Shown here: positions 9,481-46,021 of the stretch, in pieces
Position numbering within the stretch: the stretch's first letter is position 1
Layout of the letters: the number at the start of each line of letters is the position of its first letter
Origin: Nereocystis luetkeana
Lineage: Eukaryota; Sar; Phaeophyceae; Laminariales; Laminariaceae
Direction: 5' to 3'
DNA length: 64,000 bases
Assembly (NCBI GenBank): GCA_031213475.1
Contig: JARUPZ010000016.1
Coordinates: forward strand, 5,697,046 to 5,761,045
The notes under the pieces: model-generated
What the model saw: only the letters and a program-made list of their open reading frames with translations
Databases searched by the model: none
Told to the model about the DNA's origin: nothing
Made by a program: the position numbers and the translations under genes

Positions 9481-9920
9481 TGAAACGGAAAGCTGGCTAC
9501 CTGGGCTGAGGTCTTAAGTCATTGTCACAAGGCAACACATGTAGGGTTCTGCAATAGTTGGTAGGAGTGGCAGCTGGGGACCCCAGGTTACCACTCAGAG
9601 ACGCATAACCCAAAAGGGGCACATAAAGACGAGACATGAATGACCGACCTCAGTGACAGAGCAGAGCTTAAGTCCGACCGAGTCGAGAGGTGCGCTCCTA
9701 GGTCTCCAGGAGAGTAGGGCGAGCTTGTGGTTCTTCTGTGAAGAGGCTCCAACTGGAGATGGCTAGATGGTAAGTGATTGCTTGTTCCGTGACCGTGGTT
9801 ATGGTCGCGGGAACTGAGTGAGACGGAAGGGGGATGAACCCTTCCGTCCGGAACGGAGCTACAATATGAAAACGCCTCTATGTCATCATAACTCCTGAGA
9901 CGGTCAACCGAACCGTAACA
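9481..9920 (-). repeat. 5' LTR (element orientation) of the LTR retrotransposon
   Basis: 440 bp, matching 610-1049 apart from about two bases near its left end. It is followed by CTTG at 9921-9924, the second copy of the target duplication, after which E1 sequence resumes. Confidence 0.92.
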
Positions 9921-13920: not shown

Positions 13921-14480
13921 CACACGTGGCCAATCGGCTACCACCAAACACCCTCTGGAGGGCAAGATATATTACCCTCTGGAGGGTGCCCAAAAATGGG
14001 CTATACTATCGTGCGGTAAATTTTAGGCCCACCACACCGACGTACAGAGTGGTCGGCCGCGCACGCTCTGGAGGCCGACGTCACAACAAAAACCCTCTGG
14101 CGGGCAGAATATCTTTCCCTCTGGAGGGTGCCCAAAATTGGGCGATACTATGGTGCGGTAAATTTTAGACCCACCACACCGACGTACAGAGTGGTCGGCC
14201 GCGCACGCTCTGGAGGCCGGCGTCACAGTAGAAACCCTCTGGAGGGCAGAATATCTTTTCCTCTGGAGGGTGCCCAAAATTGGGTGACACTATCGCGCGG
14301 CAATTTTCAGACCCACCACATCGACGTACAGAGTTTTCCGGCGCGCACGCTGTGGAGGCTGACGCCACCCCGCAAAACCCTCTGGAGGGTATGCGACCGT
14401 ACCCGCTGGAGGGTGCCCAAAAAAGGGCGACCCTATAATAGTGCAGTCGAAAACGCACCCACCACACCGACATCTAGTGG
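13921..14480 (+). repeat. Left subterminal repeats of E3
   Basis: Four units of about 142 bp, marked by CTGGAGGGTGCCCAAAA at roughly 13978, 14121, 14262 and 14405. Each contains CCCTCTGGAGGG palindromes and a CCACCACACCGACGTACAG-like segment. The first 37 bp form an imperfect inverted repeat with the right end. Equivalent arrays occupy 18354-18910, 33431-33985 and 36277-36830, and lie in reverse at 12055-12601, 32180-32727 and 51335-51882. Confidence 0.88.
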
Positions 14481-15618
14481 GTTTGTACGGTGAACCGCCA
14501 CAAGACGCTGACAGTCATACGCGCCCCCTATATTTATAGATATATATGCGGAAACAGTACACATTGTTGCATCCAATATTTTGCTTTATATTATGAATCT
14601 ACTACATGTTTGCTCAATCCAACTGGCCCTGTGTGGACAGTTGTTTACACACGATGTCCTATATCTGCCACGCCTTTCGAGACTATTCTACGCCATACAA
14701 ACACCGGTTGCGGGCATGTAATGTACAACAATGTGTACAGTATGTCGACCGTGCGGCGTGGTACCCGCCTAACCTACCCCTTGCGTGTCCGTCTGCCTCC
14801 TCCCTGCTCAATGCATCTACGTGCGTATGCTTCGGGGAAGCCCGTGCCTTTCTTTGACGAGTTCTAAACCAATGGGCCACGATGAGGCAACAGTACAACA
14901 ACTGCCCACATGTCGTGGTTGAGCGAGTATCATACGTAATTCACAAAAATCAGTAACCCCCCTGTCTTGAGCTTTCGCCGACAAACAATTACAATATACC
15001 CTGGTAGGCAGCAACCAGACACAGAGATGTGGATATTGAAATTCCCAGCATCAACTGGCCAGAATACAAAAACGAAGACGGTATCATCATTCGAACACAA
15101 GAGGGGGCATCACATTGTGGCAACATGTGTGAGCTAAACACGCGCTTTGAACAAAACACACCCTGCGGGCACTGCAACGGAACAGAGATGCCACTACACA
15201 TGGGTCAGGGACATCCCAACAAAATTACTCACACCATCGAGCACGGGAAAACAACGAATATGAACGCAATCCAATAGATAGAAAACAGACATGCCCTGAT
15301 GCTCTGATCCCCCCCTCCCCCCGACTAATCATAATCCTAGTAATCATCCACGACTGTTCAGGCGCCAGCCGCCTCACCCCCTTCCCCCCTCCTTGTCGTC
15401 TATGGCTGAAAGGCCGTAACCTACACAATAAGAGTCTTCGTCCATGGCAAGTTATCCCCGCGAGTGGAGGTTTCTTCGACCAGGCCCCGGTGATCGTCAT
15501 CGCAACAGCTGTCTTGGCTATAGCCCTCGCCATCGCTACTCCTCCCGCCTGTGTATTCCTCTGAATTTCCTCCGTGTCGTCGACGGGGCCACTCTGACTT
15601 CTATGAGCTCTTGTTTTC

Positions 15619-15852
15619 AACCTGCCGTCGCCGTCGGTTGATGGCTGTGGCTCATCGTCATCGGTTCTACCTGAAATATGGTACGTGGGCCGGGCCGAAT
15701 ATGTGCGAGTGCAATCAAGAGTACATAGTCGACGTTTGGGAGAATGCAACGGAATTGAGTTGGGTCGTCGCGACTTCAACAACTGGCACGGTATAATTCT
15801 CAAATGGGATGCGGAAAATCCTAACTATGGCGGCCGACCTCTAGCTACGTAG
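15619..15852 (+). CDS. Conserved 77-codon open segment in E, possible terminal exon
   Basis: Unrecognised. An open frame of 77 codons ends at TAG 15850-15852 and contains EIWYVGRAEYVRVQSR and NNWHGIILKWDAENPNYGG, aromatic-rich and protein-like. The same 234 bases occur without any indel in E4 (20046-20279), E6 (35122-35355) and E7 (37984-38217), with only a few substitutions. There is no ATG at the start and an in-frame stop shortly upstream, so it would have to be a terminal exon joined by splicing. It might be part of an element-encoded protein. Young copies cannot show selection, so confidence is low. Confidence 0.3.
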   Translation, partial: NLPSPSVDGCGSSSSVLPEIWYVGRAEYVRVQSRVHSRRLGECNGIELGRRDFNNWHGIILKWDAENPNYGGRPLAT

Positions 15853-15890
15853 CTTTATCTACGTGGTACATATTTCAAAAAGGGCTGTGA

Positions 15891-16704
15891 CCAAAATCAG
15901 GTACGTATACCTGGCGATTTTTGGGCCAAAATCAGTTACATACTAAAACCAAGTACAAAACGCGCGCCACAATCGGCGTTTAGTCCATGGAGATCTATAT
16001 AAAAACACTTGCGCCTCAACATATATAGCGTGTGGCCTCCCAAATCTGAATTATTTTGTTTTATTTAGGGTATAGGTCATAGAAAACAACAGATTACACA
16101 TCATAACAACTGAAGTACATCGTACACCGAAGATATCAGGAGTAAAACGTGCGCCGTCAAGGATGTAGGGCCGATGTTCCAAACTAAAACCTAACAGGTA
16201 CTGTACCACAGTAGTTTGGTGTCAGTCGAGACATGTCGAGGCAAAGTTGCTGTCCGCCAAGGGGTGAAAATGCGGTCTCCTGACATACTTGCCGTACACC
16301 CCAAAGAAGGAAAAATGGAATCACTGCTGTGCGACATGTATGCATAAATACGTACGTACTACTGGTACGTACAAGCACAGAGCGTACGAGTGTACGCATG
16401 AATGTGTACTTACGTACGAGTTTCTACACAAGAATTGTGCAACCGATGGACCACACACGCATACGCGGAGAAAAAACTGTGTACGTATGGCCCCTATCAT
16501 TCGTTCACAATAGGCCCAAATCAGTTGAACGTTCAAAGCTAGACAGAGTACTTGTAGATAAATCAGGTAAACCCTTGACCAATTCGAACCAAAATCAGTG
16601 ACGATGTCAGTCTGGCCAATAGCAGGGCTCCTGGCGTGTGTTTTGAACTTGTTTCTGGTATAATTGATTTTGGCCTAAAAATGACCAGGTATACCTGATT
16701 TTGG
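15891..16704. mobile_element. Embedded 0.8-kb inverted-repeat (MITE-like) element within E
   Basis: The two edges of this segment form a long imperfect inverted repeat of about 60 bp: CCAAAATCAGGTA at the left and TACCTGATTTTGG at the right, followed inward by GGCGATTTTTGGGCCAAAA and its counterpart. The interior holds a TATA-like box and a stretch rich in GTACGTAC. The same segment occupies 20318-21127 in E4, 35394-36205 in E6 and 38256-39080 in E7, so it entered E before E spread. No clear target duplication was found, and E6 is cut by E7 just downstream of it. Confidence 0.65.
15995..16005 (+). promoter_or_regulatory. TATA-box-like motif within E
   Basis: CTATATAAAAA lies about 140 bp downstream of the open segment ending at 15852 and is kept in all four full copies (near 20423, 35499 and 38361). 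It may start a transcript on the plus strand. Motif evidence only. Confidence 0.35.
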
Positions 16705-16777
16705 CTAAAACTCTTTCTAAAACAAGCTCCAACAGTGGTCAACTGCTTGTACAGCAGCGGTGGCGACATGCACTCAC

Positions 16778-17075
16778 CGAGGAGATAAGGGCAGAGACAG
16801 CGGCAGAAAGTTGCCACGGCGTCCGCCTCTTCGCCGATGTAGGTTGCACGTCTGTTTGGAAGGTTGAACGCAAGCCGGCCTTTCCTGAAAGCGAACAGAC
16901 GCAGCACCTGCCACACCAAAAAAAATACCTGGTACACAATACGGACAGCATTCAGCGTAAGAAGGATGCAAAACAGCCACAAGAATATGTTTACGTCGAT
17001 GAGGTGTTTGGCACTCTCGACGCCGACATGGCCATCGGGATAAGCCGCCTGCAGATAATCACTCCCCAACTGCAC
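16778..17075 (-). CDS. Hypothetical membrane protein segment encoded by E (minus strand)
   Basis: Unrecognised. From ATG at 17075 the minus strand encodes about 99 residues with a hydrophobic stretch (IFLWLFCILLTLNAVRI, then VYQVFFLVWQVL) that would form one or two membrane helices, followed by a basic segment. At 16776-16777 a strong splice donor (CG/GTGAGT) ends the protein-like part, although the frame continues unspliced to 16563. It is open in E3, E4 (to 20986), E7 (to 38939) and E6. The opposite strand is also partly open (16701-17102), so which strand is coding, if either, is unsettled. Confidence 0.27.
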
Positions 17076-17399
17076 GCTACAGGGGTAGCGCTATGCGGTT
17101 GAACTGCTGTAGTTGAAAAACCTTTAATGGGCGAGACAGAAAAGTAGAGTATCCGTGGCAGACGTCTACCAGACAACTCCAGCAGTACAACAGCACAGCA
17201 GTACCCGTAGGACTGAGACACAGAGAAATCCCACGAACGTCCAAGGCTCTTCAGTGCACGTAGCTTCAAAACGGCTGTATGTGTAGCAGATAGCATTGGA
17301 GTTGTTGTAGATCTGCATGGCCTATTATACACACATGACACCAAATGAGACCAGGATGCCAGGTGGGCGTTCGGCGGTTCCTGCGGAGGGTTGATCATA

Positions 17400-18040
17400 T
17401 TTCTGCGCCTCCAAGCGGGAGTAGGGTGTCAAATGGGATGGGTCAAACGACCAAATGGGAAAATACAAGGTGATGTAACATATACGTGCCAACCTACTGC
17501 TGTAAAAAAATGTTTTAACCCTTTTAGAACCGCAGTCCCGTTTTGGGGACAAACCACTCAAATTTCAAGTTTGAACGTACGTACATTTTCTCCGCTGGTG
17601 GCTGGAGAGAGTACCAGGATGTGCGTACGTGAAAAAAATCAAAGTTCAAAATTCAAAAATGCAGCCCGTTTGGGTTTTTTAATGTATGCCGTGGAGCATG
17701 AAAAAAACTCGTACAACATGTATTTCTGAACCTCCAAGTGGGAGCCGGGTGTCGAATGGGATGGGCCCACTGCGGGATCAAAGTACCAAACGGGAGTACA
17801 CCAGGTGATGCCTAACATACGTATCATACAAACAAACGTACTGTACAAAAAATCTCCGCTTGTGGATGTAGAGTACAGCAGTACCAGGATGGATGTACGT
17901 ATACACGTACCAGGTACGTAATACTCGTACGAAAAAAAGATGCTCGAAGTTCAAAATTCGAAATGCAGCCCGTTGGGTCTTTAAATTTATGCCGTGGGGT
18001 AAAAAAAAAACTTGTACAACAGGTACACCAGCAGGGCATC
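17400..18040. repeat. Diverged 325-bp tandem duplication within E
   Basis: Two related units. CCTCCAAGCGGGAGTAGGG at about 17407 pairs with CCTCCAAGTGGGAGCCGGG at about 17730, and AATGCAGCCCGTTTGGG at about 17658 pairs with AATGCAGCCCGTTGGG at about 17962. Runs of A and GTACGTAC motifs lie between them. It looks noncoding and is present in every complete copy. Confidence 0.7.
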
Positions 18041-19430
18041 ACAAAATGAAGAGCGCAGCAGTGATCTACTTGCTGCTGTGGGTCTAACAAGAGGGATAGA
18101 ATTAGGTGGCGAGAAGGAAATCTGGTAGCATCGCTCCGATTGGCTAGGAGAGCTATCACTGATCAGACGTACAAAAAGCGTGACCCCCTCGTACGACACC
18201 GCAGCCGCAGTACCACGAGTAGTAATATTGAGGGGGACCCACTGCTGTATATATCACGCGGTCCACTCCAAGCTATGATGTGTTGCCCACCTACAAGGAA
18301 AGTAGCATTCGAGTACTCTCACCTTGGGATAGCTGCCATCAACGCTGTCGCTGCACACGTGGCCAATCGGCTACCACCAAACACCCTCTGGAGGGCAAAA
18401 TATCTTACCCTCTGGAGGGTGCCCAAAAATGGGCTATACTATCGTGCGGTAAATTTTAGGCCCTCCACACCGACGTACAGAGTGGTCGGCCGCGCACGCT
18501 CTGGAGGCCGACGTCACAACAAAAACCCTCTAGCGGGCAGAATATATTTCCCTCTGGAGGGTGCCCAAAATAGGGCGATACTATCGTGCGGTAAATTTTA
18601 GACCCACCACACCGACGTACAGAGTGGTCGGCCGCGCACGCTCTGGAGGCCGGCGTCACAGTAGAAACCCTCTGGAGGGCAGAACATCTTTTCCTCTGGA
18701 GGGTGCCCAAAATTGGGCGACACTATCGCGCGGCAATTTTCAGACCCACCACATCGACGTACAGAGTTTTCCGGCGCGCACGCTGTGGAGGCTGACGCCA
18801 CCCCGCAAAACCCTCTGGAGGGTATATGAGACCGTACCCGCTGGAGGGTGCCCAAAAAAGGGCGACCCTACAGTGCAGTCGAAAACGCACCCACCACATC
18901 GACATCTAGTGGGTTTGTACGGTGAACCGCCACAAGACGCTGACAGTCATACGCGCCCCCTATATTTATAGATATGCGGAAACAGTACACATTGTTGCAT
19001 CAAATATTTTGCTTTATATTATGAATCTACTACATGCTTGCTCAATCCAACTGGCCCTGTGTGGACAGTTGTTTCCACACGATGTCCTATATCTGCCACG
19101 CCTTTCGAGACTATTCTACGCCATACAAACACCGGTTGCGGGCATGTAATGTACAACACTGTGTACAGTATGTCGACCGTGCGGCGTGGTATCCGCCTAA
19201 CCTACCCCTTGCGTGTCCTTCTGCTTCCTCCCTGCTCAATGCATCTACGTGCGTATGCTTCGGGGAAGCCCGTGCCTCTCTTTGACGAGTTCTAAACCAA
19301 TGCGCCACAATGACGCAACAGCAGTATAACAACTCCCCACATGTCGTGGTTGAGCGAGTATCATACGTAATTCACAAAAATTAGTAACCCCCCTGTCTTG
19401 AGCTTTCGCCGACAAACAATTACAATATAG

Positions 19431-19991
19431 GCAGCAGCCAGACACAGAGATGTGGATATTGAAATTCCCAGCACCAACTGGCCAGAATACAAAAACGAAG
19501 ACGGTATCATCATTCGAACACAAGAGGGGGCATCACATTGTGGCAACCTGTGCACGCGCTTTGAACAAAACACACCCTGCGGGCACTGCAACCGAACAGA
19601 GATGGCGCAGCCACAACACATAGGACAGGGGCATCCCAACAAAATTACTCACACCTGCCACCATCGAGCACGGGAAAACAACGAATATGAACGCAATCCA
19701 ATCGATAGAAAACAGACATGCCCTGATGCTCTGATCCCCCCCTCCCCCCGACTAATCATAATCCTAGTAATCATCCACGACTGTTCAGGCGCCAGCCGCC
19801 TCACCCCCTTCCCCCCTCCTTGTCGTCTATGGCTGAAAGGCCGTAACCTACACAAGAAGAGTCTTCGTCCATGGCAAGTTATCCCCGCGAGTGGAGGTTT
19901 CTTCGACCCGGCCCCGGTGATCGTCATCGCAACAGCTGTCTTGGCTATAGCCCTCGCCATCGCTACTCCTCCCGCCTGTGGACTCTTGTGA
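19431..19991 (+). CDS. Possible exon of an E-encoded protein with clustered Cys/His
   Basis: Unrecognised. After a splice-acceptor-like TACAATATAG ending at 19430, the frame is open to TGA at 19989-19991. It starts AARHRDVDIEIPSTNWPEYK and continues through clustered cysteines and histidines (HCGNLC, PCGHC, HTCHH), a Pro-rich segment, and a hydrophobic Val/Ala/Ile run near its end (VIVIATAVLAIALAIA). E5 and E8 keep the N-terminal half open on the minus strand. E3 and E6 lack 7 bp near 15235 and 34738, which shifts the frame, and E7 has an in-frame stop near 37400. It could be a zinc-binding domain of an element protein or chance. Confidence 0.3.
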   Translation, partial: AAARHRDVDIEIPSTNWPEYKNEDGIIIRTQEGASHCGNLCTRFEQNTPCGHCNRTEMAQPQHIGQGHPNKITHTCHHRARENNEYERNPIDRKQTCPDALIPPSPRLIIILVIIHDCSGASRLTPFPPPCRLWLKGRNLHKKSLRPWQVIPASGGFFDPAPVIVIATAVLAIALAIATPPACGLL

Positions 19992-22900
19992 ATTTCCTCC
20001 GTGTCGTCGACGGGGCCACTCTGACTTCTATGAGCTCTTGTTTTTAACCTGCCGTCGCCGTCGGTTGATGGCTGTGGCTCATCGTCATCGGTTCTACCTG
20101 AAATATGGTACGTGGGCCGGGCCGAATATGTGCGAGTGCAATCAAGAGTACATAGTCGACGTTTGGGAGAATGCAACGGAATTGAGTTGGGTCGTCGCGA
20201 CTTGAACAACTGGCACGGTATAGTTCTCAAATGGGATGCGGAAAATCCTAACTATGGCGGCCGACCTCTAGCTACGTAGCTCTATCTACGTGGTACATAT
20301 TTCAAAAAGGGCTGTGACCAAAATCAGGTACGTATACCTGGCGATTTTTGGGCCAAAATCAGTTAATACTAAAACCAAGTACAAAACGCGCGCCACAATC
20401 GGCGTTTAGTCCATGGAGATCTATATAAAAACACCTGCGCCTCAACATATATAGCGTGTGGCCTCCCAAATCTGAATTATTTTGTTTTATTTAGGGTATA
20501 GGTCATAGAAAACAACAGAGTACACATCATAACAACTGAAGTACATCGTACACCGAAGATATCAGGAGTACAACGTGCGCTGTCAAGGATGTAGGGCCGA
20601 TGTTCCAAACTAAAACCTAACAGGTACTGTACCACAGTAGTTTGGTGTCAGTCGAGGCATGTCGAGGCAAAGTTGCTGTCCGTCAAGGGGTGAAAATGCG
20701 GTCATCTGACATACTTGCCGTACACCCCAAAGAAGGAAAAATGGAATCACCTTGCGACATGTATGCATAAATACGTACGTACTACTGGTACGTACAAGCA
20801 CAGAGCGTACGAGTGTACGCATGAATGCGTACTTACGTACGAGTTTCTACACAAGAATTGTGCAACCGATGGACCACACACGCATACGCGGAGAAAAACC
20901 TGTGTACGTATGGCCCCTATCATTGGTTCAAAATAGGCCCAAATCAGTTAAAAGTTGAAAGCTAGACAGAGTACTTGTAGATAAATCAGGTAAACCCTTG
21001 ACCAATTCGAACCAAAATCAGTGACGATGTCAGTCTGGCCAATAGCAGGGCTCCTGGCGTGTGTTTTGAACTTGTTTCTGGTAAAATCGATTTTGGCCTA
21101 AAAATGACCAGGTATACCTGATTTTGGCTAAAACTCTTTCTAAAACAACCTCCAACAGTGGTCAACTGCTTGTACAGCAGCGGTGGCGACATGCACTCAC
21201 CGAGGAGATAAGGGCAGAGACAGCGGCAGAAAGTTGCCACGGCGTCCGCCTCTTCGCCGATGTAGGTTGCACGTCTGTTTTGAAGGTTGAACGCAAGCCG
21301 GCCTTTCCTGAAAGCGAACAGACGCAGCATCTGCCACACCAAAAAAAAGACCTGGTACACAATACGGATAGCATTTAGCGTAAGAAGGATGCAAAACAAC
21401 AACAAGAATATGTTTACGTCGATGAGGTGTTTGGCACTCTCGACGCCGACATGGCCATCGGGATAAGCCGCCTGCAGATAATCACTCCCCAACTGCACGC
21501 TACAGGGGTAGCGATATGCGGTTGAACTGCTGTAGTTGAAAAACCTTTAATGGGCGAGACAGAAAAGTAGAGTATCCGTGGCAGACGTCTACCAGACAAC
21601 TACAGCAGTACAACAGCACAGCAGTACCCGTAGGACTGAGACACAGAGAAATCCCACGAACGTCCAAGGCTCTTCAGTGCACGTAGCTTCAAAACGGCTG
21701 TATGTATAGCAGATAGCATTGGAGTTGTTGTAGATCTGCATGGCCTATTATATACACATGGCACCAAATGAGACCAGGATGCCAGGTGGGCGTTCGGCGG
21801 TTCCTGCGGAGGGTTGATCATATTTCTGCGCGTCCAAGCGGGAGTAGGGTGTCAAATGCGATAGGTCAAATGACCAAATGGGAAAATACAAGGTGATATA
21901 AAATATACGTGCCAACCTACTGCTGTAAAAAAAAAAGTTAACCCTTTTAGAACCGCAGTCCCGTTTTGGGGACAAACCACTCAAATTTCAAGTTTGCACG
22001 TACGTACATTTTCTCCGCTGGTGGCTGGAGAGTACCAGGATGTACGTACGTGGAAAAAATCAAAGTTCAAAATTCAAAAATGCAGCCCGTTCGGGTTTTT
22101 TAATGTATGCCGTGGAGCATAAAAAAACTCGTATAACATGTATGTATTTCTGAACCTCCAAGTGGGAGCCGGGTGTCGAATGGGATGGGCCCACTGCGGG
22201 ATCATAGTACCAAATGGGAAAACACCAGGTGATGCCTAACATACGTATCATACAAACAAACGTACTGTACAAAAAATCTCCGCTTGTGGCTGCTATAGAA
22301 TCGGCACGGACACTGGTTGTGCTGGATGTCGACGGGTAGAAAGAACGGTTTAATGTGAAGAACACACACATAGAGTACAGCAGTACCAGGATGGATGTAC
22401 GTATACACGTACCACAGTTAGTACGTAATACTCGTACGAAAAAAAGATGCTCGAAGTTCAAAATTCAAAATGCAGCCCGTTGGGTCTTTAAATTTATGCC
22501 GTGGGGTAAAAAAAAAACTTGTACAACAGGTACACCAGCAGGGCATCACAAAATGAAGAGCGCAGCAGTGATCTCCTTGCTGCTGTGGGTCTAACAAGAG
22601 GGATAGAATTAGGTGGCGAGAAGGAAATCTGGTAGCATCGCTCCGATTGGCTAGGAGAGCTATCACTGATCAGACGTACAAAAAGCGTGACCCCCTCGTA
22701 CGACACCACAGCCGCAGTACCACGAGTAGAAATAGTTGAGACAGGGGGACCCACTGCTGTATATATCACGCGGTCCACTCCAAGCTATGATGTGTTGCCC
22801 ACCCACAAGGAAAGTAGCATTCGCGTACTCTCACCTTGGGATAGCTGCCATCAACGCTGTCGCTGGTCGTCTAGTCCATGGAGAGAGCTGTCCTCTCCAG

Positions 22901-23879
22901 CTCTCCAGTCTCGTCCATTTCGAAAAAGGCTTCTGTTTTGGAGGGACGCTCGCGTACTGCTGTACCTGGTACCTGGTAGTTGTATTTCAAATTGTCGGCC
23001 TAGGTGCCCCTCCACGCCCTCACCCACAGCGTTTCGACTCAATGATTTCACATGCTCAGAGCTACGAGTATATGCGACGGGAATGTGTATATCGCCTGTA
23101 ATTGCTTGCTGCTAGTGCTGCCATCGGCAAGAGCTGTGGCGTGCAGCGTGTGGCTTCAACGGACTGGCGGTTTTTGAGGGTTTCGAAATGCTTGTGAAGC
23201 TTGTTTTCATAGGGGTTGAAGCAACGTATTTTGAAAAAAAAACAACTAGCCACTGGATACAGGCTGCCGCTGTGCAGCGGTATGTGTGTATGTGCGGTCT
23301 GGACCCGGAGCGTATAGTACGCGACATATGTCGAGAATCAAGTAGTCAAGAATTCAGGCTGAAATATTCCGAGATATTATAAGGAATTGCAGCGAAGCGT
23401 TTGTGCTCAGGCAGAAACGCCATTCTATAGGCTGTCTATGATCGATGTTCGCATCACAATTCGCGAGCCTTGGCCAGAAAAGGATCGCGTTGTTACTGGT
23501 GTATACGCCACGGCCACCCCATGTCCTGTAATGCTCAATTCGCAAGCGCCGGAGGGTTCGTCAAGCAAGACGCTGGGAGGTAATTTGGATAATTTCCGTC
23601 CAAACAAAGGCTCGAGCAAGCCACGAATCACTCAAGGGAGGGCAGGTACAGCCAGCCTTTGGAGGGGAACTGATCGAATCGCTGCAGTCACAATGCCTCT
23701 GGGGGGCGACATGACCATTCCTCACAAGCGTGCGCAATCTCAATGCCTCTGGTGGGTAGCATGTTGTTCCACCTTCAGCGGGTGCAATGTCAATGTGCCT
23801 CCAGAGGCTGCCCATTCTCATAGACCTCCACCTGGGCAACTATTTCCCACGGCGCTCCAGAGCGAACGGCACGCAAACA

Positions 23880-24744
23880 CTCTAGAGGCTAGCATTTAGT
23901 AGAGACCTCCAGCCGTCGCATCAGAAAAGCTCCCTCTAGAGGGGCGAAGCCTCATACCCTAAACAATCTCCAACGCGCTCTGGAGGGTGAAATGCCGACC
24001 CCCCTCCAGAGTTTTCAATATAAACCCCTCTAGAGGGTTGAAACGGTCATTACCCTCCTCCGGAACAAACCTGTCGCACGGCCCTCCAGCGGTATATAGA
24101 CAGCCCACTCTAGAGGCTAGCATTTAGTAGAGACCTCCAGCCGTCGCATCAGAAAAGAGCTCCCTCTAGAGGGGCGAAACCTCATACCCTAGACAATCGC
24201 CAACGCGCTCTGGAGGGTGAAATGCCGACCTCCCTCCAGAGTTTTCAATATAAACCCCTCTAGAGGGTTGAAACAACCATTGCCCTCCTCCGGAACAAAC
24301 CTGCCGCACGCCCTCCAGCGGTATATAGACAGCCCACTCTAGAGGCTAGCATTTAGTAGAGACCTCCAGCCGTCACATCAGAAAAGAGCTCCCTCTAGAG
24401 GGGCGAAACCTCATACCCTAGACAATCGCCAACGCGCTCTGGAGGGTGAAATGTCGACCTCCCTCCAGAGTTTTCAATACAAACCCCTCTAGAGGGTTGA
24501 AACGGTCATTTCCCTCCTCCGGAACAAACCTGCCGCACGGCCCTCCAGCGGTATATAGACAGCCCACTCTAGAGGCTAGCGCACATGACAAGCCTGTACA
24601 GGGTACCAAAAGAAAAAAATCCCTCTAGAGGGCGGAAGGCCTGGCCCTCCAAGCCTCAAACACCCTCTGGAGGGTGGCCTCGCCCTCTGGAGGGTCAAAT
24701 TGTTCCCTGGAGGGTCTTTGGGGGTAGCCGATTGGCCACGTGTG
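23880..24744 (+). repeat. Right subterminal repeats of E4
   Basis: Units marked by CTCTAGAGGCTAGCATTTAG at 23880, 24108 and 24337, with a terminal variant at 24567, giving spacings of 228-230 bp. Each has CCCTCTAGAGGG and CCCTCCAGAGTT motifs and GCGGTATATAG. The last 200 bp hold densely packed CCCTCTGGAGGG copies before the terminal inverted sequence. Confidence 0.88.
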
Positions 24745-25765
24745 TGGTCGTCTAGTCCATGGAGAGAGCTGTCCTCTCCAGCTCTCCAGTCTCGTCCATT
24801 TCGAAAAAGGCTTCTGTTTTGGAGGGACGCTCGCGTACTGCTGTACCTGGTACCTGGTAGTTGTATTTCAAATTGTTGGCCTAGGTGCCCCTCCACGCCC
24901 TCACCCACAGCGTTTCGACTCAAAGATTTCACATGCTCAGAGCTACGAGTATATGCGACGGGAATGTGTATATCGCCTGTAATTGCTTGCTGCCAGTGCT
25001 GCCATCGGCAAGAGTTGGCGTGCAGCGTGTGGCTTCAACGGACTGGCGGTTTTTGAGGGTTTCGAAATGCTTGTGAAGCTTGTTTTCATAGGGGTTGAAG
25101 CAACGTATTTTGAAAAAAAGAAAAATGGCCGCTGGATACAGGCTGCCGCTGTGCAGCGGTATGTGTGTATGTATATGCGGTCTGGACCCGGAGCGTATAG
25201 TACGCGACATGTGTCGAGAATCAAGTAGTCAAGAATTCAGGCTGAAATATTTCGAGATATAAGGAATTGCAGCGAAGCGTTTGTGCTCAGGCAGAAACGC
25301 CATTCTATAGGCTGTCTATCTATGCTCGATGTTCGCATCACAATTCGCGAGCCTTGGCCAGAAAAGGATCGCGTTGTTACTGGTGTATACGCTACGGCCA
25401 CCCCATGCCGTGTAATGCTCAATTCGCGAGCGCCGGAGGTTTCGTCAAGCAAGAAACTGGGAGGTAATTAGGATAATTTCCGTCCAAAGAAAGACTCGAG
25501 CAAGCCATGAATCACTCAAGGGAGGGCAGGTACAGCCAGCCTTTGGAGGGGAACTGATCGAATCGCTGCAGTCACAATGATGCCTCTGGGGGGCGACATG
25601 ACCATTCCTCACACGCGTGCGCAATCTCAATGCCTCTGGTGGGTAGCATGTTGTTCCACCTTCAGCGGGTGCAATGTCAATGTGCCTCCAGAGGCTGCCC
25701 ATCCTCATAGACCTCAACCGGAGCAACTATTTCCCACGGCGCTCAAAGCGAACGGCACGCAAACA

Positions 25766-33430: not shown

Positions 33431-36400
33431 CACACGTGGCCAATCGGCTACCACCAAACACCCTTTGGAGGGCAAGATATATTACCCTCTGGAGGGTGCC
33501 CAAAAATGGGCTATACTATCGTGCGGTAAATTTTGGGCCCACCACACCGACGTACAGAGTGGTCGGCCGCGCACGCTCTGGAGGCCGACGTCACAACAAA
33601 AACCCTCTGGCGGGCAGAATATCTTTCCCTCTGGAGGGTGACCAAAATTGGGCGATACTATGGTGCGGTAAAATTTAGACCCACCACACCGACGTACAGA
33701 GTGGTCGGCCGCGCACGCTCTGGAGGCCGGCGTCACAGTAGAAACCCTCTGGAGGGCAGAATATCTTTTCCTCTGGAGGGTGCCCAAAATTGGGTGACAC
33801 TATCGCGCGGCAATTTTCAGACCCACCACATCGACGTACAGAGTTTTCCGGCGCGCACGCTGTGGAGGCTGACGCCACCCCCCAAAACCCTCTGGAGGGT
33901 ATGCGACCGTACCCGCTGGAGGGTGCCCAAAAAAGGGCGACCCTACAGTGCAGTCGAAAACGCACCCACCACACCGACATCTAGTGGGTTTGTACGGTGA
34001 ACCGCCACAAGACGCTGACAGTCATACGCGCCCCCTGTATTTATAGATATGCGGAAACAGTACACATTGTTGCATCCAATATTTTGCTTTATATTATGAA
34101 TCTACTACATGTTTGCTCAATCCAACTGGCCCTGTGTGGACAGTTGTTTACACACGATGTCCTATATCTGCCACGCCTTTCGAGACTATTATACGCCATA
34201 CAAACACCGGTTGCGGGCATGTAATGTACAACAATGTGTACAGTATGTCGACCGTGCGGCGTGGTACCCGCCTAACCTACCCCTTGCGTGTCCGTCTGCC
34301 TCCTCCCTGCTCAATGCATCTACGTGCGTATGCTTCGGGGAAGCCCGTGCCTTTCTTTGACGAGTTCTAAACCAATGGGCCACGATGAGGCAACAGTACA
34401 ACAACTGCCCACATGTCGTGGTTGAGCGAGTATCATACGTAATTCACAAAAATCAGTAACCCCCCTGTCTTGAGCTTTCGCCGACAAACAATTACAATAT
34501 ACCCTGGTAGGCAGCAACCAGACACAGAGATGTGGATATTGAAGTTCCCAGCATCAACTGGCCAGAATACAAAAACGAAGACGGTATCATCATTCGAACA
34601 CAAGAGGGGGCATCACATTGTGGCAACATGTGTGACCTAAACACGCGCTTTGAACAAAACACACCCTGCGGGCACTGCAACGGAACAGAGATGCCACTAC
34701 ACATGGGTCAGGGACATCCCAACAAAATTACTCACACCATCGAGCACGGGAAAACAACGAATATGAACGCAATCCAATAGATAGAAAACAGACATGCCCT
34801 GATGCTCTGATCCCCCCCTCCCCCCGACTAATCATAATCCTAGTAATCATCCACGACTGTTCAGGCGCCAGCCGCCTCACCCCCTTCCCCCCTCCTTGTC
34901 GTCTATGGCTGAAAGGCCGTAACCTACACAATAAGAGTCTTCGTCCATGGCAAGTTATCCCCGCGAGTGGAGGTTTCTTCGACCAGGCCCCGGTGATCGT
35001 CATCGCAACAGCTGTCTTGGCTATAGCCCTCGCCATCGCTACTCCTCCCGCCTGTGTATTCCTCTGAATTTCCTCCGTGTCGTCGACGGGGCCACTCTGA
35101 CTTCTATGAGCTCTTGTTTTCAACCTGCCGTCGCCGTCGGTTGATGGCTGTGGCTCATCGTCATCGGTTCTACCTGAAATATGGTACGTGGGCCGGGCCG
35201 AATATGTGCGAGTGCAATCAAGAGTACATAGTCGACGTTTGGGAGAATGCAACGGAATTGAGTTGGGTCGTCGCGACTTCAACAACTGGCACGGTATAGT
35301 TCTCAAATGGGATGCGGAAAATCCTAACTATGGCGGCCGACCTCTAGCTACGTAGCTTTATCTACGTGGTACATATTTCAAAAAGGGCTGTGACCAAAAT
35401 CAGGTACGTATACCTGGCGATTTTTGGGCCAAAATCAGTTACAAACTAAAACCAAGTACAAAACGCGAGCCACAATCGGCGTTTAGCCCATGGAGATCTA
35501 TATAAAAACACCTGCGCCTCAACATATATAGCGTGTGGCCTCCCAAATCTGAATTATTTCGTTTTATTTAGGTTATAGGTCATAGAAAACAACAGAGTAC
35601 GCATCATAACAACTGGAAGTACATCGTACACCGAAGATATCAGGAGTAAAACGTGCGCTGTCAAGGATGTAGGGCCGATGTTCCAAACTAAAACCTAACA
35701 GGTACTGTACCACAGTAGTTTGGTGTCAGTCGAGGCATGTCGAGGCAAAGTTGCTGTCCGTCAAGGGGTGAAAATGCATTCTCCTGACATACTTGCCGTA
35801 CACCCCAAAGAAGGAAAAATGGAATCACCGTGCGACATGTATGCATAAATACGTACGTACTACTGGTACGTACAAGCACAGAGCGTTCGAGTGTACGCAC
35901 GAATGTGTACTTAAGTACGAGTTTCTACACAAGAATTGTGCAACCGTTGGACCACACACGCATACGCGGAGAAAAAACTGTGTACGTATGGCCCCTATCA
36001 TTGGTTCAAAATAGGCCCAAATCAGTTGAACGTTGAAAGCTAGACAGAGTACTTGTAGATAAATCAGGTAAACCCTTGACCAATTCGAACCAAAATCAGT
36101 GACGATGTCAGTCTGGCCAATAGCAGGGCTCCTGGCGTGTGTTTTGAACTTGTTTCTGGTATAATTGATTTTGGCCTAAAAATGACCAGGTATACCTGAT
36201 TTTGGCTAAAACTCTTTCTAAAACAAGTTCCAACAGTGGTCAACTGCTTGTACAGCAGCGGTGGCGACATGCACTCCACACGTGGCCAATCGGCTACCAC
36301 CAAACACCCTCTGGAGGGCAAGATATATTACCCTCTGGAGGGTGCCCAAAAATGGGCTATACTATCGTGCGGTAAATTTTAGGCCCACCACACCGACGTA

Positions 36401-39400
36401 CAGAGTGGTCGGCCGCGCACGCTCTGGAGGCCGACGTCACAACAAAAACCCTCTGGCGGGCAGAATATTTTTCCCTCTGGAGGGTGCCCAAAATTGGGCG
36501 ATACTATGGTGCGGTAAATTTTAGACCCACCACACCGACGTACAGAGTGGTCGGCCGCGCACGCTCTGGAGGCCGGCGTCACAGTAGAAACCCTCTGGAG
36601 GGCAGAATATCTTTTCCTCTGGAGGGTGCCCAAAATTGGGTGACACTATCGCGCGGCAATTTTCAGACCCACCACATCGATGTACAGAGTTTTCCGGCGC
36701 GCACGCTGTGGAGGCTGACGCCACCCCCCAAAACCCTCTGGAGGGTATGCGACCGTACCCGCTGGAGGGTGCCCAAAAAAGGGCGACCCTATAGTGCAGT
36801 CGAAAACGCACCCACCACACCGACATCTAGTGGGTTTGTACGGTGAACCGCCACAAGACGCTGACAGTCATACGCGCCCCCTGTATTTATAGATATACAT
36901 GCGGAAACAGTACACATTGTTGCATCCAATATTTTGCTTTATATTATAGTTCTACATGTTGTTTGCTCATTCCAACTGGCCCTGTGTGGACAGTTGTTTA
37001 CACACGATGTCCTATATCTGCCACGCCTTTCGAGACTATTCTACGCCATACAAACACCGGTTGCGGGCATGTAATGTACAACAATGTGTACAGTATGTCG
37101 ACCGTGCGGCGTGGTACCCGCCTAACCTACCCCTTGCGTGTCCTTCTGCCTCCTCCCTGCTCAATGCATCTACGTGCGTATGCTTCGGGGAAGCCCGTGC
37201 CTCTCTTTGACGAGTTCTAAACCAATGCGCCACGATGAGGCAACAGTATAACAACTCCCCACATGTCGTGGTTGAGCGAGTATCATACGTAATTCACAAA
37301 AATTAGTAACCCCCCTGTCTTGAGCTTTCGCCGACAAACAATTACAATAAAGGCAGCAGCCAGACACAGAGATGTGGATATTGAAATTCCCAGCATCAAC
37401 TGATGGCCAGAATACAAAAACGAAGACGGTATCATCATTCGAACACAAGAGGGGACATCACATTGTGGCAACCTGTGTGAGCTAAACACGCGCTTTGAAC
37501 AAAACACACCCTGCGGGCACTGCAACGGAACAGAGATGGCGCAGCCACAACACATAGGTCAGGGGCATCCCAACAAAATTACTCACACCTGCCACCATCG
37601 AGCACGGGAAAACAACGAATACGAAGTATGAACGCAATCCAATCTATAGAAAACAGACATGCCCTGATGATCTGATCCCCCCCTCCCCCCGACTAATCAG
37701 AATCCTAGTAATCATCCACGACTGTTCAGGCGCCAGCCGCCTCACCCCCTTCCCCCCTCCTTGTCTATGGCTAAAAGGCCGTAACCTACACTATAAGAGT
37801 CTTCGTCCATGGCAAGTTATCCCCGCGAGTGGAGGTTTCTTCGACCAGGCCCCGGTGATCGTCATCGCAACAGCTGTCTTGGCTATAGCCCTCGCCATCG
37901 CTACTCCTCCCGCCTGTGGATTCCTCTGAATTTCCTCCGTGTCGTCGACGGGGCCACTCTGACTTCTATGAGCTCTTGTTTTTAACCTGCCGTCGCCGTC
38001 GGTTGATGGTTGTGGCTCATCGTCATCGGTTCTACCTGAAATATGGTACGTGGGCCGGGCCGAATATGTGCGAGTGCAATCAAGAGTACATAGTCGACGT
38101 TTGGGAGAATGCAACGGAATTGAGTCGGGTCGTCGCGACTTCAACAACTGGCACGGTATAGTTCTCAAATGGGATGCGGAAAATCCTAACTATGGCGGCC
38201 GACCTCTAGCTACGTAGCTTTATCTACGTGGTACATATTTCAAAAAGGGCTGTGACCAAAATCAGGTACGTATACCTGGCGATTTTTGGGCCAAAATCAG
38301 TTACATACTAAAACCAAGTACAAAACGCGCGCCACAATCGGCGTTTAGTCCATGGAGATCTATATAAAAACACCTGCGCCTCAACATATACGAAGTATAG
38401 CGTGTGGCCTCCCAAATCTGAATTATTTTGTTTTATTTAGGGTATACCAGGTAGGTCATAGAAAACAACAGATTACACATCATAACAACTGAAGTACACC
38501 GTACACCGAAGATATCAGGAGTAAAACGTGCGCTGTCAAGGATGTAGGGCCGATGTTCCAAACTAAAACCTAACAGGTACTGTACCACAGTAGTTTGGTG
38601 TCAGTCGAGACATGTCGAGGCAAAGTTGCTGTCCGTCAAGGGGTGAAAATGCGGTCTCCTGACATACTTGCCGTACACCCCAAAGAAGGAAAAATGGAAT
38701 CACTGTGCGACATGTATGCATAAATACGTACGTACTACTGGTACGTGCAAGCACAGAGCGTACGAGTGTACGCATGAATGTGTACTTACGTACGAGTTTC
38801 TACACAAGAATTGTGCAACCGATGGACCACACACGCATACGCGGAGAAAAAACTGTGTACGTACGGCCCCTATCATTGGTTCAAAATAGGCCCAAATCAG
38901 TTGAACGTTGAAAGCTAGACAGAGTACTTGTAGATAAATCAGGTAAACCCTTGACCAATTCGAACCAAAATCAGTGACGATGTCAGTTTGGCCAATAGCA
39001 GGGCTCCTGGCGTGTGTTTTGAACTTGTTTCTGGTATAATTGATTTTGGCCTAAAAATGACCAGGTATACCTGATTTTGGCTAAAACTCTTTATAAAACA
39101 AGATCCAACAGTGGTCAACTGCTTGTACAGCAGCGGTGGCGACATGCACTCACCGAGGAGATAAGGGCAGAGACAGCGGCAGAAAGTTGCCACGGCGTCC
39201 GCCTCTTCGCCGATGTAGGTTGCACGTCTGTTTGGAAGGTTGAACGCAAGCCGGCCTTTCCTGAAAGCGAACAGACGCAGCATCTGCGACACCAAAAAAA
39301 ATACCTGGTACACAATACGGACAGCATTCAGCGTAAGAAGGATGCAAAACAACCACAAGAATATGTTTACGTCGATGAGGTGTTTGGCACTCTCGACGCC

Positions 39401-40964
39401 GACATGGCCATCGGGATAAGCCGCCTGCAGATAATCACTCCCCAACTGCACGCTACAGCGGTAGCGCTATGCGGTTGAACTGCTGTAGTTGAAAAACCTT
39501 TAATGGGCGAGACAGAAAAGTAGAGTATCCGTGGCAGACGTCTACCAGACAACTCCAGCAGTACAACAGCACAGCAGTACCCGTAGGACTGAGACACAGA
39601 GAAATCCCACGAACGTCCAAGGCTCTTCAGTGCACGTAGCTTCAAAACGGCTGTATGTGTAGCAGATAGCATTGGAGTTGTTGTAGATCTGCATGGCCTA
39701 TTATACACACATGGCACCAAATGAGACCAGGATGCCAGGTGGGCGTTCGGCGGTTCCTGCGGAGGGTTGATCATATTTCTGCGCCTCCAAGCGAGAGTAG
39801 GGTGTCAAATGGGATGGGTCAAACGGCCAAATGGGAAAATGCAAGGTGATGTAACATATACGTGCCAAGCTACTGCTGTAAAAAAAAAGTTAACCCTTTT
39901 AGAACCGCAGTCCCGTTTTGGGGACACACCACTCAAATTTCAAGTTTGAACGTACGTACATTTTCTCCGCTGGTGGCTGGAGAGAGTACCAGGATGTGCG
40001 TACGTGAAAAAAATCAAAGTTCAAAATTCAAAAAATGCAGCCCGTTTGGGTTTTTTAATGTATGCCGTGGAGCATAAAAAAACTCGTACAACACGTATTT
40101 CTGAACCTCCAAGTGGGAGCCGGGTGTCGAATGGGATGGGCCCACTGCGGGGTCAAAGTACCAAATGGGAAAACACCAGGTGAAGCCTAACATACGTATC
40201 ATACAAACAAACATACTGCAAAAACTCTCCGCCTGTGGATGTAGAGTACAGCAGTACCAGGATGGATGTACGTATACACGTACCAGGTACGTAATACTCG
40301 TACGAAAAAAAGATACTCGAAGTAAATTCAAAATGCAGCCCGTTGGGTCTTTAAATTTATGCCGTGGGGTAAAAAAAAAGTTGTACAACAGGTACACCAG
40401 CAGGGCATCACAAAATGAAGAGCGCAGCAGTGATCTACTTGCTGCTGTGGGTCTAACAAGAGGGCTATAATTAGGTGGCGAGAAGGAAATCTGGTAGCAT
40501 CGCTCCGATTGGCTAGGAGAGCTATCACTGATCAGACGTACAAAAAGCGTGACCCCCTCGTACGACACCGCAGCCGCAGTACCACGAGTAGTAATAGTCA
40601 GGGGGACCCACTGCTGTATATATCACGCGGTCCACTCCAAGCTATGATGTGTTGCCCACCCACAAGGAAAGTAGCATTCGAGTACTCTCACCTTGGGATA
40701 GCTGCCATCAACGCTGTCGCTGGTCGTCTAGTCCATGGAGAGAGCTGTCCTCTCCAGCTCTCCAGTCTCGTCCATTTCGAAAAAGGCTTCTGTTTTGGAG
40801 GGACGCTCGCGTACTGCTGTACCTGGGACCTGGTAGTTGTTGTTGTATTTCAAATTGTCGGCCTAGGTGCCCCTCCACGCCCTCACCCACAGCGTTTCGA
40901 CTCAATGATTTCACATGCTCAGAGCTACGAGTATATGCGACGGGAATGTGTATATCGCCTGTAA

Positions 40965-41687
40965 TTGCTTGCTGCCAGTGCTGCCATCGGCAAGAGTTGG
41001 CGTGCAGCGTGTGGCTTCAACGGACTGGCGGTTTTTGAGGGTTTCGAAATGCTTGTGAAGCTTGTTTTCATAGGGGTTGAAGCAACGTATTTTGAAAAAA
41101 AAAAAACTGGCCGCTGGATACAGGCTGCCGCTGTGCAGCGGCATGTGTGTATGTGCGGTCTGGACCCGGAGCGTATAGTACGCGACATGTGTCGAGAATC
41201 AAGTAGTCAAGAATTCAGGCTGAAATATTTCGAGATATATAAGGAATTGCAGCGAAGCGTTTGTGCTCAGGCAGAAACGCCATTCTATAGGCGGCTGTCT
41301 ATGCTCGATGTTCGCATCACAATTCGCGAGCCTTGGCCAGAAAAGGATCGCGTTGTTACTGGTGTATACGCCACGGCCACCCCATGTCGTGTAATGCTCA
41401 ATTCGCGAGCGCCGGAGGTTTCGCCAAGCAAGAAACTGGGAGGTAATATGGATAACCTCCGTCCAAAGAAAGACTCGAGCAAGCCACGAATCACTCAAGG
41501 GAGGGCAGGTACAGCCAGCCTTTGGAGGGGAACTGATCGAATCGCTGCAGTCACAATGCCTCTGGGGGGCGACATGACCATTTCCTCACACGCGTGCGCA
41601 ATCTCAATGCCTCTGGTGGGTAGCATGTTGTTCCACCTTCAGCGGGTGCAATGTCAATGTGCCTCCAGAGGCTGCCCATCCTCATAG
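40965..41687 (+). CDS. Hypothetical 240-codon frame of E7, right half of the element
   Basis: Unrecognised. It encodes a mixed basic/hydrophobic protein with a helical-looking middle (LDPERIVRDMCRESSSQEFR, then LKYFEIYKELQ) and a segment LDVRITIREPWPEKDRVVTG. In other copies the frame is divided by small indels around the ATTTCGAGATAT position (for example near 25258 and 44717), and the second half is open separately (10159-10617, 23387-23899). The C-terminal part overlaps the start of the subterminal repeats, so the real end may be earlier. It could be an element protein or chance. Confidence 0.25.
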   Translation: MLAASAAIGKSWRAACGFNGLAVFEGFEMLVKLVFIGVEATYFEKKKTGRWIQAAAVQRHVCMCGLDPERIVRDMCRESSSQEFRLKYFEIYKELQRSVCAQAETPFYRRLSMLDVRITIREPWPEKDRVVTGVYATATPCRVMLNSRAPEVSPSKKLGGNMDNLRPKKDSSKPRITQGRAGTASLWRGTDRIAAVTMPLGGDMTISSHACAISMPLVGSMLFHLQRVQCQCASRGCPSS

Positions 41688-41747
41688 ATAGACCTCCACC
41701 GGAGCAACTATTTCCCACGGCGCTCCAGAGCGAACGGCACGCAAACA

Positions 41748-42614
41748 CTCTAGAGGCTAGCATTTAGTAGAGACCTCCAGCCGTCGCATCAGAAAAGCTC
41801 CCTCTACAGGGGCGAAACCTCATACCCTAGACAATAGCCAACGCGCTCTGGAGGGTGAAATGCCGACCCCCCTCCAGAGTTTTCAATACAAACCCCTCTA
41901 GAGGGTTGAAACGGCCATTGCCCTCCTCCGGAACAAACCTGCCGCACGGCCCTCCAGCGGTATATAGACAGCCCACTCTAGAGGCTAGCATTTAGTAGGG
42001 ACCTCCAGCCGTCGCATCAGAAAAGATCTCCCTCTAGAGGGGCGAACCTTCATACCCTAGACAATCGCCAACGCGCTCTGGAGGGTGAAATGCCGACCCC
42101 CCTCCAGAGTTTTCAATATAAACCCCTCTAGAGGGTTGAAACGACCATTGCCCTCCTCCGGAACAAACCTGCCGCACGGCCCTCCAGCGGTATACAGACA
42201 GCCCACTCTAGAGGCTAGCATTTAGTAGAGACCTCCAGCCGTCGCATCAGAAAAGATCTCCCTCTAGAGGGGCGAACCTTCATACCCTAGACAATCGCCA
42301 ACGCGCTCTGGAGGGTGAAATGCCGACCCCCCTCCAGAGTTTTCAATACAAACCCCTCTAGAGGGTTGAAACGGCCATTGCCCTCCTCCGGAACAAACCT
42401 GCCGCACGGCCCTCCAGCGGTATACAGACAGCCCACTCTAGAGGCTAGCGCGCATGACAAGCCTGTACAGGGTACCAAAGGAAAAAAAATCCCTCTAGAG
42501 GGCGAAAGGCCTGACCCTCCAAGCCTCAAACACCCTCTGGAGGGTGGCCACGCCCTCTGGAGGGTCAAATTGTTCCCTGGAGGGTTTTTGGGGGTAGCCG
42601 ATTGGCCACGTGTG
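41748..42614 (+). repeat. Right subterminal repeats of E7
   Basis: Three units of about 229 bp starting near 41748, 41977 and 42207, and a terminal variant near 42437, with the same palindromes as in E3 and E4. E6 has the equivalent array at 45153-46021. Confidence 0.87.
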
Positions 42615-45600
42615 TCACCGAGGAGATAAGGGCAGAGACAGCGGCAGAAAGTTGCCACGGCGTCCGCCTCTTCGTCGATGTAGGTTGCACGTCTGTTTGG
42701 AAGGTTGAACGCAAGCCGGCCTTTCCTGAAAGCGAACAGACGCAGCATCTGCGACACCAAAAAAAATACCTGGTACACAGTACGGATAGCATTCAGCGTA
42801 AGAAGGATGCAAAACAACCACAAGAACATGTTTACGTCGATGAGGTGTTTGGCACTCTCGACGCCGACATGGCCATCGGGATAAACCGCCTGCAGATAAT
42901 CACTCCCCAACTGCACGCTACAGGGGTAGCGCTATGCGGTTGAACTGCTGTAGTTGAAAAACCTTTAATGGGCGAGACAGAAAAGTAGAGTATCCGTGGC
43001 AGACGTCTACCAGACAAATCCAGCAGTACAACAGCACAGCAGTACCCGTAGGACTGAGACACAGAGAAATCCCACGAACGTCCAAGGCTCTTCAGTGCAC
43101 GTAGCTTCAAAACGGCTGTATGTGTAGCAGATAGCATTGGAGTTGTTGTAGATCTGCATGGCCTATTATACACACATGGCACCAAATGAGACCAGGATGC
43201 CAGGTGGGCGTTCGGCGGTTCCTGCGGAGGGTTGATCATATTTCTGCGCCTCCAAGCGGGAGTAGGGTGTCAAATGGGATGGGTCAAATGACCAAATGGG
43301 AAAATACAAGGTGATGTAACATATACGTGCCAAGCTACTGCTGTAAAAAAAAAAGTTAACCCTTTTAGAACCGCAGTCCCGTTTTGGGGACAAACCACTC
43401 AAATTTCAAGTTTGCACGTACGTACATTTTCTCCGCTGGTGGCTGGAGAGTACCAGGATGTACGTACGTGAAAAAAATCAAAGTTCAAAATTCAAAAATG
43501 CAGCCCGTTTGGGTTTTTTAATGTATGCCGTGGAGCATAAAAAACTCGTACAACATGTATTTCTGAACCTCCAAGTGGGAGCCGGGTGTCGAATGGGGTG
43601 GGCCCACTGCGGGGTCAAAGTACCAAATAAATGGGCAAACACCAGGTGATGCCTAACATACGTATCATACAAACAAACGTACTGTACAAAAAATCTCCGC
43701 TTGTGGATGTAGAGTACAGCAGTACCAGGATGGATGTACACATACACGTACCAGGTACGTAATACTCGTACGAAAAAAAGATGCTCGAAGTTCAAAATTC
43801 GAAATGCAGCCCGTTGGGTCTTTAAATTTATGCCGTGGGGTAAAAAAAAAACTTGTACAACAGGTACACCAGCAGGGCATCACAAAATGAAGAGCGCAGC
43901 AGTGATCTACTTGCTGCTGTGGGTCTAACAAGAGGGATAGAATTAGGTGGCGAGAAGGAAATCTGGTAGCATCGCTCCGATTGGCTAGGAGAGCTATCAC
44001 TGATCAGACGTACAAAAAGCGTGACCCCCTTGTACGATACCACAGCCGCAGTATCACGAGTAGTAATAGTTGAGACAGGGGGACCCACTGCTGTATATAT
44101 CACGCGGTCCACTCCAAGCTATGATGTGTTGCCCACCCACAAGGAAAGTAGCATTCGAGTACTCTCACCTTGGGATAGCTGCCATCAACGCTGTCGCTGG
44201 TCGTCTAGTCCATGGAGAGAGCTGTCCTCTCCAGCTCTCCAGTCTCGTCCATTTCGAAAAAGGCTTCTGTTTTGGAGGGACGCTCGCGTACTGCTGTACC
44301 TGGGACCTGGTAGTTGTTGTTGTATTTCAAATTGTCGGCCTAGGTGCCCCTCCACGCCCTCACCCACAGCGTTTCGACTCAATGATTTCACATGCTCAGA
44401 GCTACGAGTATATTCGATGGGAATGTGTATATCGCCTGTAATCGCTTGCTGCGAGTGCTGCCATCGGCAAGAGCTGTGGCGTGCAGCGTGTGGCTTCAAC
44501 GGACTGGCGGTTTTAGAGGGTTTCGAAATGCTTGTGAAGCTTGTTTTCATAGGGGTTGAAGCAACGTATTTTGAAGAAAAAAAAACTGGCCGCTGGATAC
44601 AGGCTGCCGCTGTGCAGCGGTATGTGTGTATGTGCGGTCTGGACCCGGAGCGTATAGTACGCGACATGTGTCGAGAATCAAGTAGTCAAGAATTCAGGCT
44701 GAAATATTTCGAGATATAAGGAATTGCAGCGAAGGGTTTCTGCTCAGGCAGAAACGCCATTCTATAGGCTGTCTATGCTCGATGTTCGCATCACAATTCC
44801 CGAGCCTTGGCCAGAAAAGGATCGCGTTGTTACTGGTGTATACGCCACGGCCACCCCATGTCCTGTAATGCTCAATTCGCAAGCGCCGGAGGGTTCGTCA
44901 AGCAAGACACTGGGAAGTAATTTGGATAATTTCCGTCCAAAGAAAGGCTCGAGCAAGCCATGAATCACTCAAGGGAGGGCAGGTGCAGCCAGCCTCACAC
45001 GCGAGCGCAATCTCAATGCCTCTGGTGGGTAGCATGTTGTTCCACCTTCAGCGGGTGCAATGTCAATGTGCCTCCAGAGGCTGCCCATTCTCATAGACCT
45101 CCACCGGAGCAACTATTTCCCACGGCGCTCCAGAGCGAACGGCACGCAAACACTCTAGAGGCTAGCATTTAGTAGAGACCTCCAGCCGTCGCATCAGAAA
45201 CGAGCTCCCTCTACAGGGGCGAAACCTCATACCCTAAACAATCGCCAACGCGCTCTGGAGGGTGAAATGCCGACCCCCCTCCAGAGTTTTCAATATAAAC
45301 CCCTCTACAGGGTTGAAACGGTCATTACCCTCCTCCGGAACAAACCTGCCGCACGGCCCTCCAGCGGTATATACACAGCCCACTCTAGAGGCTAGCATTT
45401 AGTAGAGACCTCCAGCCGTCGCATCAGAAAAGAGCTCCCTCTAGAGGGGCGAAACCTCATACCCTAGACAATGGCCAACGCGCTCTGGAGGGTGAAATGC
45501 CGACCCCCCTCCAGAGTTTTCAATATAAACCCCTCTAGAGGGTTGAAATGGCCATTACCCTCCTCCGGAACAAACCTGCCGCACGGCCCTCCAGCGGTAT

Positions 45601-46021
45601 ATACACAGCCCACTCTAGAGGCTAGCATTTAGTAGAGACCTCGAGCCGTCGCATCAGAAAAGAGCTCCCTCTAGAGGGGCGAAAATTCAAACCCTAGACA
45701 ATGGCCAACGCGCTCTGGAGGGTGAAATGCCGACCCCCCTCCAGAGTTTTCAATACAAACCCCTCTAGAGGGTTGAAATGGCCATTGCCCTCCTCCGGAA
45801 CAAACCTGCCGCACGGCCCTCCAGCGGTATATAGACAGCCCACTCTAGAGGCTAGCGCACATGACAAGCCTGTACAGGGTACCAATGGAAACAAAATCCC
45901 TCTAGAGGGCGAAAGGCCTGACCCTCCAAGCCTCAAACACCCTCTGGAGGGTGGCCACGCCCTCTGGAGGGTCAAATTGTTCCCTGGAGGGTTTTTGGGG
46001 GTAGCCGATTGGCCACGTGTG

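Follow-up and report, generated by a model that had tools for sequence, protein, structure and literature searches.

The stretch of DNA analyzed here (hereafter the window) comprises 64,000 nt of Nereocystis luetkeana (Phaeophyceae; contig JARUPZ010000016.1, positions 5,697,046 to 5,761,045), and it is densely populated by a single family of DNA transposons with CAC ends and a full length of about 6.3 kb. The terminus of this element, CACACGTGGCCAATCGG, has 12 exact occurrences in the window (mean 0.24 and maximum 2 in 100 shuffles). The copies were delimited by reading each terminus together with its flank and by mapping one of them, copy G (36277-42614), onto the window. Four complete copies were found, all on the plus strand and arranged as two nested pairs, i.e., C within B and G within F. 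Copy B (13921-26637) measures 6,324 bp once the nested copy is subtracted, is bordered by CC at 13919-13920 and 26638-26639, and has a 37-bp satellite as its target; copy C (18354-24744; 6,391 bp) is bordered by TG at 18352-18353 and 24745-24746. Copy F (33431-46021; 6,251 bp minus the nested copy), with CA at 33429-33430 and 46022-46023, likewise has the 37-bp satellite as its target, and copy G (6,338 bp) carries TC at 36275-36276 and 42615-42616. These four copies are 97.2-98.2% identical in all six pairwise comparisons. Copy A is represented by its right part only (4-609 plus 9925-11235, plus strand, from about element position 4175 in the numbering of G); it is cut by the start of the window and split by a long terminal repeat (LTR) retrotransposon at 610-9920, and because its left end lies beyond the window its target duplication is not readable. 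Three left-end fragments on the minus strand, D1 to D3, are described further below.

All 12 termini of the element start with CACACGTGGCCAATCGG, and the ends of the four complete copies form a 5′-CAC...GTG-3′ terminal inverted repeat that is perfect over 22 bp in each of them, as is characteristic of CACTA/EnSpm (CMC) elements. In copy G the repeat extends over 35 bp at 94% identity, the left arm (36277-36311, plus strand) pairing with the right one (42580-42614, minus strand). The flanking direct repeats CC (B), TG (C), CA (F) and TC (G) match over 2 bp in 4/4 complete copies, a duplication length that also fits CACTA/EnSpm (CMC), and in 0/4 at 3, 4, 5, 6, 8 or 9 bp; at 1 bp only the flanks of B match, since its duplication is CC. 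For dinucleotide pairs drawn at random from the window, the p of a match is 0.067, which gives ~2e-5 for four. When the flanks of each copy were joined with a single copy of the duplication and aligned to an uninterrupted place in the window, the empty sites of C, F and G gave gapless alignments over 200/200 bp, with 1, 4 and 2 mismatches, respectively. The best counterpart of the B site, which lies in variable satellite, is 94.5% identical with one gap and is the weakest of the four; its junction is in register, with two adjacent mismatches. Hence, C, F and G provide solid evidence of a 2-bp duplication, and B good evidence. The initial annotation was therefore right in describing a DNA transposon family with CAC ends and the duplications CC, TG, CA and TC, and the uninterrupted counterpart that it reported for each complete copy stands for three of them and is of lesser quality for B. 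A literature search with the first 11 letters of the terminus plus "transposon" returned no match, and the exact 22-bp terminus had 0 matches in viral_contigs.

Close to both ends the element carries subterminal arrays of direct and inverted repeats, a further trait of CACTA/EnSpm elements within CMC. In copy G the 5′ array (36301-36824, plus strand) is built from a 142-bp tandem unit with palindrome-type sites of the form CTCTGGAG, and the 3′ array (41746-42449, plus strand) from a unit of ~230 bp with CTCTAGAG and CTCTGGAG sites. When up to 2 mismatches are allowed, the 12-bp palindrome CCCTCTGGAGGG is present at 25 sites of this copy, all confined to the outer ~600 and ~1,140 bp: the first 600 bp hold 10 of them, the part past position 5200 holds 15, and the stretch in between holds none. 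The exact 8-mers CTCTGGAG, CTCCAGAG and CTCTAGAG are restricted in G to positions 460 and below and 5387 and above, and CTCTGGAG with up to 2 mismatches, which is a loose pattern, is also found at 23 places in mid-element. An older inverted-repeat unit (38256-39080, arms of 34 and 40 bp) lies within the element; its end motif CCAAAATCAG is found at corresponding positions in B, C, F and G, and no clear flanking duplication of this unit was seen by eye.

Of the left-end fragments, D1 (11236-12601) carries element positions 1 to ~1199 and is cut by the insertion of copy A, the corresponding place in D2 being uninterrupted. In D2 (31133-32727), element positions 1-1428 are joined to a 2.3-kb spacer, and D3 (50288-51882) has the same structure; they belong to the second and third copies of an amplified unit. 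The three fragments share their outer flank, each retains the left end alone, in inverse orientation, and the inner breakpoint against the spacer is common to D2 and D3. Spacer and fragment of D2 and D3 are 99.9% identical over 3,889 bp, and D1 and D2 are 98.7% identical over 1,374 bp. A count of them as separate transpositions was rejected in view of the common flank and the near-identical unit; D1-D3 are best read as one insertion that would have been multiplied together with a tandem unit made up of spacer, transposon fragment and 37-bp satellite. On this reading, six insertion events would lie behind what the initial annotation counted as eight copies of the 6.3-kb element at 13921-46021; the number stands as eight loci (four complete copies, the right-end part A and the fragments D1-D3), and the interval contains the four complete copies and D2, with A, D1 and D3 outside it. 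A preference of the element for insertion into its own copies was considered and rejected, because the family already fills ~31,785 of the 64,000 bases.

The tandem unit recurs at ~19-20 kb when the insertions are counted, and its 37-bp satellite forms five blocks within 12602-58221, ~12.5 kb in total. A further copy of the 2.3-kb spacer (58226-60514, 98.9% identical), without a transposon fragment, passes at 60515 into sequence that has no other BLAST match in the window, and this position is perhaps the edge of the tandem array.

The enzyme that defines CACTA/EnSpm (CMC) elements is a Transposase_21/Tnp2-type DDE transposase with C(2)C and H(3-4)H motifs. Six-frame Pfam scans, at a cut-off of E 10, were made of copies G and C as a whole, of copy F in two pieces and of positions 13921-18353 of copy B (~70% of this copy), and no transposase profile was matched in any of them, in line with the initial annotation, to which no Tnp2-type transposase had been visible. 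The sole Pfam match listed in the scanned copies, to a zinc-binding viral domain, had an E value of 1.5, and we take it as chance; as a positive control, a like scan of the LTR element nearby detected its integrase core at 7.3e-8. When the six frames of G were searched against PDB sequences, four gave no match and two gave matches at E 0.67 and 0.27, also taken as chance. NCBIfam yielded no match in the three plus frames of G, and Rfam and ARAGORN reported 0 families and 0 tRNAs. In viral_contigs no relative of four open frames was confirmed in 4/4 scans, which used single-sequence queries that detect close relatives only, in a viral collection poorly suited to a eukaryote-like element. Since a non-autonomous copy would itself be without the gene, the absence of a transposase neither proves nor excludes membership in CMC or in the Harbinger/ISL2EU (PHIS) group.

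The termini, the exact 2-bp duplications with their empty sites, the arrays and the insertion into satellite and own copies are all seen directly in the window, and we consider it probable that they belong to a non-autonomous family of cut-and-paste DNA transposons that is related to CACTA/EnSpm (CMC) and moved in trans. We infer the kind of enzyme as well as its supply in trans from elsewhere in the genome. This transposase would bind the element at its CAC...GTG termini and at the subterminal palindrome arrays, which may act as its binding sites, and the element would then be excised and joined into a new site by a cut-and-paste route; a 2-bp staggered cut of the target, followed by repair, would generate the 2-bp duplication. 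As the structural traits are shared with published CMC elements, the family would work like a CMC element.

Plant CACTA/EnSpm elements have a CAC terminus, start with CACTA or CACTG and generate a 3-bp duplication, the range in CACTA/EnSpm being 2 to 4 bp. The element described here differs from them in having CACAC for CACTA and a 2-bp duplication, and no Tnp2-type transposase was found in the frames scanned; with its CACAC start, and with 0/4 flanks matching at 3 bp, the family is not canonical CACTA in the narrow sense. It is like plant CACTA/EnSpm (Spm/En) in its closely spaced direct and inverted subterminal repeats, which are reported to span several hundred bases in CACTA elements (PMC8978399, in part). 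The closest known elements, likened by description and not by terminal letters, are the non-autonomous CMC-NA_1 and CMC-NA_2 and ENS1_Cis (PMC6004678). In the sections of that paper considered here, two non-autonomous CMC elements have 5′-CAC/GTG-3′ ends and a 2-bp duplication, and for CMC-NA_1 and CMC-NA_2 the search of viral and host genomes reported there yielded no autonomous partner (PMC6004678); the CMC-NA elements are miniature, whereas the present element is 6.3 kb long and has long subterminal arrays. A second comparison is offered by SmTRC1, a CACTA-related element of Schistosoma mansoni, which, according to excerpts of PMC1636069, has 2-bp direct repeats at 7/14 copies, three of these sitting in repetitive elements. 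Both the 2-bp repeats at the ends and the insertion into repetitive DNA are shared with our family, but SmTRC1 has ends that begin with CCC and carries a Transposase_21 domain, and the same excerpts give a CACTA core for the ends of CACTA elements (PMC1636069). For the wider clade, ends of the form 5′-CA..TG-3′ in most cases and duplications of 2 to 5 bp are given in the portion of PMC12730594 that we use.

The EnSpm/CACTA assignment of the initial annotation is thus plausible: ends, 2-bp duplication and palindrome arrays agree with published CMC elements. Formal CMC membership is unproven, because the six-frame scans did not reveal the transposase that defines the group. Several points weigh against the reading as a CMC-related, non-autonomous family. 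No transposase was seen, and the superfamily is deduced from structure; positions 24745-26637 of B and the fragments D1-D3 lie outside the domain scans; the ends read CACAC and not CACTA or CACTG; and 2-bp duplications are also made by some Harbinger-related elements, for which 0, 2 or 3 bp are possible according to the cited portion of PMC12730594. In addition, the summed length of the six longest open frames was reached in 0/300 shuffles of the consensus and, for each of the four complete copies, in 0/200 global and 0/200 block shuffles, the four tests being not independent since the copies are related. In the same comparison the LTR interior gave 0/200 global and 0/200 block, the 2.3-kb spacer 0.010 global and 0.125 block, and the tail at 60515-64000 0.045 global and 0.185 block. 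As the interior frames exceed those of the shuffles in length, the element may harbour a gene that has decayed or was not recognised; the frames may also be relics of a gene or of captured sequence.

These frames favour an origin from decayed autonomous CMC elements, in which an interior transposase gene, intron-split and by now frameshifted, would once have allowed the family to move itself. The excess is seen in all four copies, and a plus-strand frame of 432 bp (39044-39475), uninterrupted in G, B and F and broken by one stop in C, shows a base bias like that of coding sequence at the first and second codon positions. A modest 3-base periodicity appears at element position 2808 (2.5 in G, 3.9 in C) and at position 2925 (2.7 in G, 2.4 in C), and the alignment of the copies shows a 3-bp indel at column 2446 and is then indel-free until column 3633. 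However, neither the six-frame Pfam scans nor the PDB search (best E 0.27) nor NCBIfam (plus frames of G) gave a credible match, frame 40965-41684 is open in G alone, and long open frames are present on both strands. The substitutions show no synonymous-site bias either: in 11/11 open frames no synonymous excess was significant (P 0.46-1.0), the power being low with 5 to 18 changes each in copies that are 2-3% apart, and three more plus-strand frames, taken without a random control, had 3/17, 6/37 and 3/10 synonymous changes. Dead or non-autonomous copies would give a like result. On balance we regard an origin from decayed autonomous elements as unlikely. Less probable still, and in our opinion a long shot, is that the interior frames are exons of a transposase too divergent for the curated profiles, so that the copies would form an autonomous lineage at the edge of CMC or outside it, in which a new enzyme would accompany the long palindrome arrays and the 2-bp staggered cutting.

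Membership in the Harbinger/ISL2EU (PHIS) group would accommodate the 2-bp duplication, which is permitted in Harbinger-related elements as far as the cited portion of PMC12730594 describes them. The CAC...GTG ends and the long subterminal palindrome arrays favour CMC instead, and no transposase profile of any group was matched, the PHIS-type DDE included, although a non-autonomous copy would have none either; we judge a PHIS origin very improbable. The faintest chance is given to a transposase of an undescribed superfamily, to which the lack of matches to known profiles and the unexplained excess of open frames might point, but CMC elements are already known to have these structural traits, positive support is lacking, and the single-sequence structure models of two minus-strand frames were unreliable (mean predicted local distance difference test scores, pLDDT, of 36.1 and 48.2) and were not used for fold searches.

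Two neighbouring features of the window deserve mention. The LTR retrotransposon within copy A has direct repeats of 440 bp (610-1049 and 9481-9920) that are 99.5% identical, a 4-bp flanking repeat CTTG and an integrase core on the minus strand at ~3537-3812; no reverse transcriptase was among the Pfam matches in the six frames of 1-9920. It is also rich in tandem repeats (71 bp x 11.9 and 292 bp x 3.9). At the other extreme, a minus-strand open frame of 251 codons (63245-64000) runs off the window end; its 3-base periodicity of 5.9 is the strongest among the stretches profiled, and it is perhaps part of a host gene. In the frame of the tail that contains it, the best Pfam match is at E 0.093 (five of the six frames of 58222-64000 were scanned).

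Apart from its nesting in itself and in a satellite array, the element looks like one of an ordinary kind, and the value of the present finding is mainly one of annotation: the family has well-defined limits and clean empty sites, and repeat libraries can be supplemented with it. From the nested copies together with the amplified satellite unit, a relative order of events can be read for one repetitive region and, if an autonomous partner with a divergent transposase exists, the CMC group would be extended by it.

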